A DNA stretch of 64,000 bases, taken from NCBI RefSeq assembly GCF_000271485.2, contig NZ_AKVN02000001.1, positions 4,656,501-4,720,500 on the forward strand. Direction: 5' to 3'. The notes below the pieces were generated by a model that saw nothing but the letters and a program-made list of their open reading frames with translations, was not told where the DNA came from and ran no database searches. Origin of the DNA: Pelosinus fermentans DSM 17108 (GTDB lineage: Bacteria > Bacillota > Negativicutes > DSM-13327). Positions 41,092 through 43,898 of the stretch are shown here, piece after piece. The stretch's first letter is position 1. Every line of letters begins with the position of its first letter. The position numbers were made by a program, and so were the translations under genes.

Positions 41092-41200
41092 CTTTTAGCC
41101 ACCATTAAGGCTGTTCCCCTGCGATATCCTCATCATCAGCTTTTGCAGCCATACTGTAATTACCTTGTGGTTATGTAGTGCCGAAGTACGAATTAATTCC

Positions 41201-42625
41201 TTATGTTTTTCTACGTCTATTAAAACTAGAAATAAGCAGTAATTTAGTAATTTCAATGCTAGGAATTGCCAAATTCAAGTTCTGTCCTTTGGTGTATCCA
41301 CCAGTAGTTATACCTACTAATGACCCATATCTATCGAGTAATGCACCACCTGAACTACCAGGAGAAATAGGAGCAGTGATTTGAATAAAATTTTGATCAT
41401 CAAAACTTCGGAAACCTGCAATTATACCATCGGAAATCGTATTCATGAGCCCAAGCGGACTACCAATCGCTACAATTTGTTGACCTCGTTTTAAACTATC
41501 GCTACTTTTGATAGGTATTGGTCGTGTTTTGCAATCGATTTGCAATAAGGCAAGGTCTTTTTGTCCATTGTTAGATATCACTGTATGTGTGATATACTCC
41601 GATTTATTATTTTCAAACAGGATTCCAAAGAAACTTCCATCCTCAATTACATGATAATTTGTCACAATGGTTCCATCTTCGTCAATGACTACGCCAGAGC
41701 CACTGCCACAATGTACGTGGTCATCATCGTAAACATTAATCATTACGATTGAATCAGACAACTTCGCCAATTCTTCATAGCTTTTTTCTATATGCTTCGT
41801 ATGTATTATAGGTGCAGGATTCGGCGAAATAGTCTGTGATATATGTTTCGCAGGGAATCCTATTGTAACCCTACTTTCTTTTGGTTTTGGGAAGTCATAA
41901 ATTTCAATTTTCATGTTATGTTCTATTAATTTCACATATGTATTGCGCAGGTCTATCCTATTAAATTCTTTATCATCTGTAGCGCTTATATATAAGGCAT
42001 CACAACCTAGCATTGATAAGAATATAAAAAAATAAGCCTCATTCCGTCTTATTGCTCCCCAAAAAATGAACTTAGGTATAGAATTACTCTTCATCTCTCC
42101 AGAAAATAAACTACTCAAATAAGAATTTACCCACAAAATTAATGACAAGCCATAATTTCTTCTTATTGACTGGTTCTTGCTTTTTTCAATATCATCAAAT
42201 AACTCTAATATTTTGGATAACGATCGTTTAATTGTCCAATTGACAGTGGTATTACTGATCTTAGTATCCCAAACAATACGATATAATTCTATATAGCTCC
42301 GTTTGCTATCATTTTCCCATTTTTCAAATTGATCCCAAATCGCTACTGCCTTTTCAATTTCTTCATTGGAATGAGAGCTAGTCAAACCTTGCTTTATGAT
42401 AAGATATGGCTCAGAAGTTTTTTTCAAATTACATTCTAAGTCCCTTAATTCTTCCAAGTAATTTGTTGCATTGTCACAAATTCCAATATATCGATAACAA
42501 TAGGTTGGGACAATGTGCCCTTTATTAAACTTTTTAATTCGCTCATTTCGTGATTTTAATATATCTTGCAAAGGATTCTGACTGTCTAATAAGAAAATTC
42601 CCTTTGCTTTTTCAGTAATAATCAA
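41201..42625 (-). CDS. Trypsin-like (HtrA-type) serine protease with a YceG-like N-terminal part
   Basis: A 474-residue protein without signal peptide or obvious membrane anchor. The last ~200 residues are an HtrA-like protease domain with all three catalytic residues: NYHVIED (His), NGQKDLALLQI (Asp) and PISPGSSGGALLD (Ser); no PDZ domain follows. The first ~260 residues include FIFWGAIRRNEAYFFIFLSM with LGCDALYIS, which recalls the YceG family of tellurite-type stress operons; this link is from memory and tentative. The start is TTG 42625 behind GGGGGTAG. It stands alone, convergent with the lipase gene. Confidence 0.8.
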   Translation of the reverse strand: MIITEKAKGIFLLDSQNPLQDILKSRNERIKKFNKGHIVPTYCYRYIGICDNATNYLEELRDLECNLKKTSEPYLIIKQGLTSSHSNEEIEKAVAIWDQFEKWENDSKRSYIELYRIVWDTKISNTTVNWTIKRSLSKILELFDDIEKSKNQSIRRNYGLSLILWVNSYLSSLFSGEMKSNSIPKFIFWGAIRRNEAYFFIFLSMLGCDALYISATDDKEFNRIDLRNTYVKLIEHNMKIEIYDFPKPKESRVTIGFPAKHISQTISPNPAPIIHTKHIEKSYEELAKLSDSIVMINVYDDDHVHCGSGSGVVIDEDGTIVTNYHVIEDGSFFGILFENNKSEYITHTVISNNGQKDLALLQIDCKTRPIPIKSSDSLKRGQQIVAIGSPLGLMNTISDGIIAGFRSFDDQNFIQITAPISPGSSGGALLDRYGSLVGITTGGYTKGQNLNLAIPSIEITKLLLISSFNRRRKT

Positions 42626-42725
42626 AATTCTACCCCCAGTTCCAGAAGTCCCACGGACGGCTCGTCCAATTTACCAGAATTTGCAACTCACGAGGGACGA
42701 TTCCACCGAGTTTATCCCAGTTTCA

Positions 42726-43523
42726 TCACTTGAGAAGCTCTCCCTTCAGCACTGTTACAGCTTTACCCCTAATCCGAACTCGGTCTCCTGCCGCAAGTAA
42801 CTGTAGGAAACCGCCCCGTTTCGATGCTTGATAAGCAATAAACTCGTTTTTCTTCAACTTTGCCTGCCAATAAGGAGTTAGACGGCAATGAGCCGAACCT
42901 GTAACAGGGTCTTCATTGACACCAACAGCAGGAGCAAAAAAACGAGAAATAAAATCATAATTCTTTGATGCAGATAAAGCTGTCACAATTACTCCCCGGC
43001 AGGAAACCTGAATTAATCGACCAAAATCTGGTGCAGCCTCTTTTACTTCATCTTCTGACGATACTTCGATCAGATAATCGTCATCGCTGCGCCCAATAAA
43101 AATGGGCTTTACTCCCAAAGATTCCACTAATCCGCAAGGTGCTTCACAAGGAATTACAGTAGTGGCCGGAAAATCTAATTCAATTAAACCAGTATCCTCC
43201 TGATAGCTAGCTGTTAGCAAACCGCTTAAGGTGAAAAATCGAGCCTGTCTGTTTAATGGTAACAGTTTTTCCGTATACAGAATATGAGCACTCGCCAAAG
43301 TTGCGTGACCACAAAGTTTAACTTCATTCTTAGGTGTAAACCAACGAAGTTTATAACCGTCATTTTCCGGTATCAAAAACGCAGTTTCCGATAAGTTGTT
43401 TTCGTTAGCCACAGCCTGCAACCATTCATCATCTCTGATTTCTTCCAGTAAGCAGACAGCAGCTGGATTGCCTTTGTAAGGCTTATCGGTAAACGCATCA
43501 ACCTGATAGATTGTTACTCCCAT
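42726..43523 (-). CDS. PhzF-family isomerase-like protein
   Basis: A 265-residue PhzF/DapF-fold protein: YQVDAFTDKPYKGNPAAVCL, NLSETAFLIP with the family's catalytic glutamate context, FTPKNEVKLCGHATLASAHI, and EDPVTGSAHCRLTPYW near the end. ATG 43523 follows GAGGAG; the open frame reaches 43544. Members isomerise or epimerise small metabolites; the individual role is unknown. Confidence 0.9.
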   Translation of the reverse strand: MGVTIYQVDAFTDKPYKGNPAAVCLLEEIRDDEWLQAVANENNLSETAFLIPENDGYKLRWFTPKNEVKLCGHATLASAHILYTEKLLPLNRQARFFTLSGLLTASYQEDTGLIELDFPATTVIPCEAPCGLVESLGVKPIFIGRSDDDYLIEVSSEDEVKEAAPDFGRLIQVSCRGVIVTALSASKNYDFISRFFAPAVGVNEDPVTGSAHCRLTPYWQAKLKKNEFIAYQASKRGGFLQLLAAGDRVRIRGKAVTVLKGELLK

Positions 43524-43596
43524 TTTGATTCTCCTCGTATTCAAAAATCACGGGGCCGATGGTTGCGCCCTTTTATATTTTATTTACCAGCAAAAT

Positions 43597-43636
43597 AAAA
43601 ACTCCTGCAAAGCTAATTTACTTTGCAGGAGTTTTT
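43597..43636. terminator. Bidirectional terminator
   Basis: Perfect 16-base arms AAAAACTCCTGCAAAG and complement with an eight-base loop and T-run. It lies upstream of phzF on the minus strand, so it belongs to plus-strand transcription or an unseen unit. The rest of 43637-43898 holds nothing recognisable. Confidence 0.7.
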
Positions 43637-43898
43637 TCACCCTCAGTGAAACCTCAGCTGAGAGTCACTACCGTCCGAAATCCAGCTTCTCATATACTTT
43701 GAGGAAATGCGAACCGTAATATTTTTGTCACATTTATCAAGTATAATTAAAATCAATTTAGAAGAATTGGAGGGTCGACGTATTCCATCGTCCCAGATTT
43801 AAAACATTTTTCATTGATTACTTGTGGACTTCAAAGAAATATTAAATAGGAGTTTGATATTATAAAATGACAAATAACTTGATTATGGAGGTTTCATT

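Follow-up and report, generated by a model that had tools for sequence, protein, structure and literature searches.

Architecture and predicted location of the YceG-protease fusion

What is the role of a trypsin-like protease that carries no recognizable export signal and is preceded instead by a YceG domain of the kind found in Ter stress operons? The question is raised by a gene on the reverse strand of the window, that is, the whole stretch of 64,000 nucleotides of Pelosinus fermentans DSM 17108 DNA analysed here. The gene (positions 41201..42625, reverse strand; 474 aa) is delimited by the list of open reading frames, by Pfam matches and by its ortholog in Pelosinus fermentans JBW45. It begins with a TTG codon, and a Shine-Dalgarno-like GGGGG run, read directly from the sequence, lies 7 nt before the start (42633..42637, reverse strand). 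The GC content of the gene is 33.5% vs 38.5% for the window, and a GC content this low is seen in about 5% of windows of equal size. A scan for promoters and terminators stayed at chance level.

The initial annotation proposed that the approximately 260 N-terminal residues include a segment resembling YceG, and the profile search agrees: residues 17-254 (41864..42577, reverse strand) match YceG_bac (PF14266; 104.5 bits, E = 9.4e-30, cut-off 25), forming a single YceG repeat. Residues 309-439 (41309..41701, reverse strand) match the trypsin-like Trypsin_2 domain (PF13365; 99.9 bits, E = 2.9e-28, cut-off 27.6). The catalytic triad is complete, as originally described, with His325 (codon 41651..41653), Asp357 (41555..41557) and the Ser425 of a GSSGG motif (41351..41353), all on the reverse strand, invariant in the seven fusions that we aligned; the same catalytic motifs were read in the translations of five further fusions, which were found later and stand outside this alignment.

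No PDZ domain was detected in the fusion by Pfam at E values up to 1, and the protein ends 35 residues past the Trypsin_2 match. Hydropathy and sequence likewise revealed neither a signal peptide nor a membrane anchor in any of the 12 fusions, which upholds the initial annotation on this point, its prediction of a cytoplasmic protein included. The Kyte-Doolittle maximum over the first 30 windows of 19 residues is 0.42 in the P. fermentans protein and ranges from -0.09 to 0.57 across the 12 fusions, vs 1.04-2.34 in five exported relatives (for the fusion L131, values were counted from an internal Met at position 46, as the start of its long open reading frame looks overextended). No membrane segment was found in the window's protein, whose overall hydropathy maximum of 1.61 falls within the YceG core. 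AlphaFold modelling of the window's protein and its JBW45 ortholog gave an unusable result (pLDDT 29.8).

Distribution and selection

Profile and protein searches recovered 12 intact fusions in several classes of Bacillota, as expected for the conserved fusion that the initial annotation had envisaged. They are carried by DSM 17108 and JBW45, two of 300 genomes sampled from the window's class, and, in other samples, by three of 113 (G447, G745 and G706), two of 46 (G615 and G688), two of 398 (G1014 and G954) and three of 82 genomes (G1204, G1207 and G1210); these samples partly overlap, and the counts are not additive. In a sample drawn from the phylum, a YceG_bac match is present in 16 of 398 genomes, three of which carry the fusion. 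Even within Pelosinus, only two of eight genomes are carriers. The JBW45 ortholog shares 95% amino acid identity with the window's protein and also starts with TTG, and five more fusions that we scanned (L063, L065, L117, L130 and L143) have YceG_bac matches above the cut-off. A thirteenth copy, in G521 (L121, 8030-8285), is decayed: through an internal deletion, 25 N-terminal residues abut 60 C-terminal ones.

Whole-gene dN/dS values, calculated with a Nei-Gojobori script for the three unsaturated pairs, are 0.31 for DSM 17108-JBW45 and 0.21 for both G447-G745 and G447-G706; the saturated pair G615-G688 gave no ratio. In the same order, the N-terminal half yields 0.40, 0.27 and 0.33, and the C-terminal half 0.14, 0.13 and 0.10. 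Both halves are therefore under purifying selection, and the protease half changes more slowly. Given these values (0.21-0.31 for the whole gene and at most 0.40 for either half) and 11 other copies that are likewise intact and spread over several classes, the fusion is not a product of chance.

Among mobile elements, the N-terminal half has no match in 50,697 phage records and none in viral contigs, where no relative of the fusion was confirmed; in plasmids, it has one match, a YceG family protein of Aneurinibacillus. None of the whole-protein matches in phages and plasmids covers 80% of the fusion. Apart from the Aneurinibacillus record, those listed correspond to the protease half and are mostly named Do/DegQ-type or trypsin-like proteases.

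Origin of the two halves

In a tree of 42 YceG domains, the 12 fusions form one clade (support 98/95), which falls among the inner repeats of ter-operon YceG proteins and away from their last repeats. By this placement, the YceG half descends from an inner repeat of ter-operon YceG. Fusions and inner repeats have kept R45, G48, N157, W165, K185, G190, E196, G207 and D209 in common. With these residues retained, the YceG site looks preserved, and the YceG half should still be able to bind the partner of ter YceG. Among the 60 listed of 113 PDB relatives, none represents the YceG half: their best matching stretches start at residue 284 at the earliest, and most are protease domains of the DegP/DegQ/DegS/HTRA1 type. 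A one-domain YceG protein without a protease also exists as a stand-alone gene in G525 (L064, 1029-1904; 291 aa); it is of the last-repeat type and sits on a different contig from the ter-type YceG of that genome.

The protease half was placed in a tree of 48 domains, comprising the 12 fusions, 16 domains labelled as surface or secreted proteases and 20 labelled as htrA by motif. The fusions again form one clade (97/96), and its sister is a G838 protein that combines a signal peptide, a Cu-amine-oxidase-N domain, the protease and MORN (98/91). Fusion and G838 proteases nest within the larger set of surface proteases, several of which are long-branched and were flagged by the tree program, whereas 18 of the 20 domains labelled htrA make up a clade of their own (100/98); the other two, L023 and L025, group with the surface set. 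In agreement, a profile of the fusion protease scores surface proteases at up to 204 bits vs 83-113 bits for the htrA rows. The NCBIfam HtrA/Do models match only residues 300-461 or so of the fusion, below their curated cut-offs (for the Do family, 125.1 bits vs a cut-off of 416.2 over residues 301-461), and no PDZ model matched. By these sequence comparisons, PDZ-type HtrA proteins are not the closest relatives of the fusion protease, and the original label of HtrA-like is right only in a broad sense: the protease sits with secreted wall-associated proteases. Since these nearest relatives, which carry Cu-amine-oxidase-N, SLH or CWB2 modules, are secreted, a surface protease appears to have swapped its export module for a Ter domain. 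We also considered whether proteins scoring 130-225 bits might be fusions with new sensors and rejected them; those that could be read (all but L137, L138 and L159) are exported surface proteases.

The order within the fusion clade matches between the two trees at the main forks, with the Pelosinus pair separating from the rest and then G615/G688 from the other eight. The trees thus trace each half to a single origin, and the single clade in both, together with the matching internal order, points to one fusion event, with the two halves inherited together ever since. A single joining would have put an inner YceG repeat in front of the catalytic domain from a wall-associated, secreted protease, whose signal peptide and wall module would have been lost. 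The protease now occupies the place of the last YceG repeat, which the inner repeats precede in ter YceG.

Genomic setting

In the window, the fusion gene lies between a lipase-like and a PhzF-like gene, both named from a reading of their translations. The stretch that contains the fusion and the PhzF-like gene (41101..43711) is absent at the same site in the collinear blocks of two other Pelosinus genomes, JBW45 (G024) and G036, as collinearity with the lipase flank stops at 41096/41101 and resumes at 43712. In G036, where the site is empty, the adjacent lipase-like gene is split into three frames (L125; C38, 10614-11940). JBW45 carries its fusion at 0.42 Mb and the lipase locus at 4.82 Mb; the block that it shares with the window (41126..42644) is 96.2% identical at the DNA level (blastn) and occupies a different chromosomal place. 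Adjacent to the JBW45 fusion is an 86-bp remnant that matches the end of the PhzF gene, which makes it probable that the fusion and the PhzF-like gene were mobile as a pair in the past. As a partner gene, PhzF was rejected; it is not common to the other loci and is represented in JBW45 by the remnant only. In the spacer that separates the fusion from the PhzF-like gene, some 71 bp (42645-42716) are missing in JBW45 and have no second copy in the window.

Across all 12 loci, where the neighbours were read, the fusion is the sole open reading frame in common. It is a stand-alone gene, as first described, and an accessory one with a patchy distribution.

Possible association with the Ter and defence systems

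The initial annotation suggested looking for homologues near ter genes or in defence islands; one of the 12 loci lies beside ter genes, and two have defence genes nearby. The window's neighbours include no ter genes, and on the same contig (C1) the fusion, at 4.70 Mb, is distant from the ter cluster at 0.71 Mb. This cluster encodes three TerD proteins, AIM24, TerC, C-C_Bond_Lyase, a PRTase_2-TRSP-StiP-PELOTA_1 protein and a HAD protein. A ter YceG is absent from the genome, in which the fusion is the only PF14266 match. Separately, we note that PRTase_2, TRSP, StiP and PELOTA_1 are united here in one 839-aa protein (L171, 13694-16213), and that they apparently form two genes in G1014 and G954. 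The ter cluster of G1014 contains a two-repeat YceG, as, by eye, does that of G954. Away from the ter operon in 11 of the 12 loci, the fusion lies beside a ter cluster in G615, where approximately 260 bp separate its end from a HAD gene; three terD genes follow at 3.8 kb, and after them TelA and a three-repeat YceG.

At the genome level, TerD is present in 11 of the 12 carriers vs 15 of 27 comparators, which were hand-picked before the result was seen, are related to each other and leave out G066, G740 and many f85/g100 genomes. A stratified exact test that does not correct for kinship within strata gives p = 0.023 (8.2 of 12 expected). TerD occurs in two of five Pelosinus comparators, one of three in f85, one of six in g201, one of three in g367 and all ten in g100, a genus in which every genome tried has it (13/13). 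The one carrier without a TerD match is G688, whose genome is 82% complete. The co-occurrence of fusion and TerD is modest, and Ter does not need the fusion, as many relatives with Ter are without it.

Defence genes lie within about 10 kb of the fusion at two of the 12 loci, three of which were analysed with PADLOC and nine read by eye. The JBW45 fusion is near matches to MkoC (E = 7e-295) and DruB1 (E = 2.6e-253). Downstream of it, L066 (11968-18603) holds a three-gene set of mixed Mokosh/Druantia-like character: a helicase resembling MkoC, a gene that matches DruB1 over its whole length, and one for a 527-aa protein that has no match in Pfam. In G706, the genes near the fusion include Mrr and a DNA methyltransferase, as well as a GHKL ATPase gene (HATPase_c_3) that adjoins a Methyltransf_35 gene beside Mrr (L119, 12688-14981); this last pair has no PADLOC match and is possibly a defence pair. 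In the window, none of the ten neighbours of the fusion has a defence match, except for a generic sigma-54 activator. The PADLOC model RT-Protease_XI matches the fusion protease at 70 bits; we rejected it as a specific assignment because ordinary HtrAs score alike, with two housekeeping HtrAs reaching 41 and 67 bits.

Possible functions of the fusion

We consider it about evenly balanced whether the fusion is a Ter-linked, YceG-gated cytoplasmic stress protease, and place this reading ahead of the others. The YceG half would sense or dock onto a Ter component, or onto a product of the Ter module, during stress. In HtrA proteases, a C-terminal PDZ domain controls activity; as the YceG half is the only candidate controller in the fusion, the protease may be gated or targeted by the state of Ter. 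The YceG half would then take the regulatory place of the PDZ domains and let the protease cleave a target in the cytoplasm. A stress effector whose other half is a sensor, as first proposed, is plausible, with TerD co-occurrence and the faster change of the N-terminal half pointing that way. The defence effector proposed alongside it is weakly supported: defence genes are near two loci of 12, and none of the window's ten neighbours is specific for defence. A wider and more tentative proposal, which we think possible, is that proteolysis forms an output arm of the Ter system in Bacillota, in which an inner YceG repeat would read the state or product of Ter and release a cytoplasmic protease recruited from the surface, a caspase-like switch that the TerD-trypsin of Pseudomonas would have reached separately.

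Several other explanations compete with a Ter-gated protease. The fusion could act independently of Ter as a stand-alone anti-phage or abortive-infection protease, in which the YceG half detects an infection cue and the protease then kills the cell, arrests it or switches on another effector. The gene is patchy, mobile and single, two copies have the neighbours described above (MkoC and DruB1 in JBW45; Mrr, the methyltransferase and the ATPase pair in G706), and sensor-fused trypsin-like proteases are described as serving Avs, Lamassu, Hachiman and DRT systems (PMC12799240). We nevertheless regard this as somewhat unlikely, as such neighbours occur at only two of 12 loci and amount to a generic sigma-54 activator in the window, no partner gene is conserved across the loci, the N-terminal half is without a match in the phage records and viral contigs, and the PADLOC protease match is unspecific. 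Rather unlikely, too, is a constitutive quality-control protease of the cytoplasm in which YceG serves as an adaptor for substrates or complexes and not as a stress sensor: the Do/HtrA-like matches would fit, as would a catalytic half held under strong purifying selection, but housekeeping proteases are not rare and patchy (two of eight Pelosinus genomes) or decayed as in G521, and the TerD excess among carriers speaks against it.

Two further possibilities bear on where the protein works and whether it cuts. All nearest relatives of the protease read as exported, and the fusion might follow them to the surface by a non-classical route; with a signal peptide or anchor in none of the 12 fusions, nor in the ter-operon YceG proteins whose translations were read, we find this hardly credible. 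That the protein is a non-catalytic scaffold, its protease fold serving for binding only, is very improbable in view of the triad and GSSGG motif, invariant in the seven aligned fusions, and of the catalytic half having the lowest dN/dS.

To our knowledge, the output of the Ter system is unknown. A conserved Ter-domain/protease fusion of single origin with an intact triad offers a handle on it, and an enzyme assay could try the YceG half, TerD or the products of the module as switches. The fusion also illustrates cleanly how an exported protease seems to have been relocated to the cytoplasm through replacement of its N-terminal module.

Comparison with known systems

We found no description of a YceG-protease fusion in the literature searched, a scope outside which the main Ter review lies. 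The closest known relative of the N-terminal half is the ter-operon YceG (PF14266; yceCDEFGH in Bacillus subtilis), which has the same domain, of the inner-repeat type, with G48, D209 and other residues conserved. However, ter YceG has two to three repeats and ends in a distinct last repeat, whereas the fusion has one repeat followed by a protease and lies outside the operon. In the account given in PMC3498285, B. subtilis yceG belongs to a stress operon under sigma-W/B/M, and among the roles that PMC8123226 names for the widespread ter genes are tellurite, oxidative stress, phage inhibition and colicin resistance.

The protease domain, in turn, falls in the same clade as the trypsin-like surface proteases of Bacillota with Cu-amine-oxidase-N, SLH or CWB2 modules. 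These have signal peptides and surface modules and no YceG, the reverse of the fusion. HtrA, DegP and DegS share the trypsin-like domain and the H-D-S triad with the fusion, which differs from them in lacking a signal or anchor and a PDZ domain, in its low Do score (125.1 vs 416.2) and in its clade.

Sensing proteins fused to a trypsin-like output also occur in the Avs, Lamassu, Hachiman and DRT systems, where, in the cases described in PMC12799240, defence-system proteases activate nucleases. There, the protease pairs with the gene of an MBL pro-nuclease; in contrast, the YceG fusion has no partner gene common to the 12 loci. Trypsin domains in conflict systems are described in PMC7159879, a paper in which YceG does not occur.

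A parallel in design is the TerD-Tryp protein YP_273108.1 of Pseudomonas syringae, which is listed as uncharacterised in PMC2605481 and for which its finders suggest a role in unfavourable growth conditions. Compared by that description, it resembles the fusion in combining an N-terminal Ter-system domain with a C-terminal trypsin and differs in having TerD instead of YceG and in belonging to another phylum. As described there, YP_273108.1 is another instance of a trypsin linked to a Ter domain, next to the YceG fusion.
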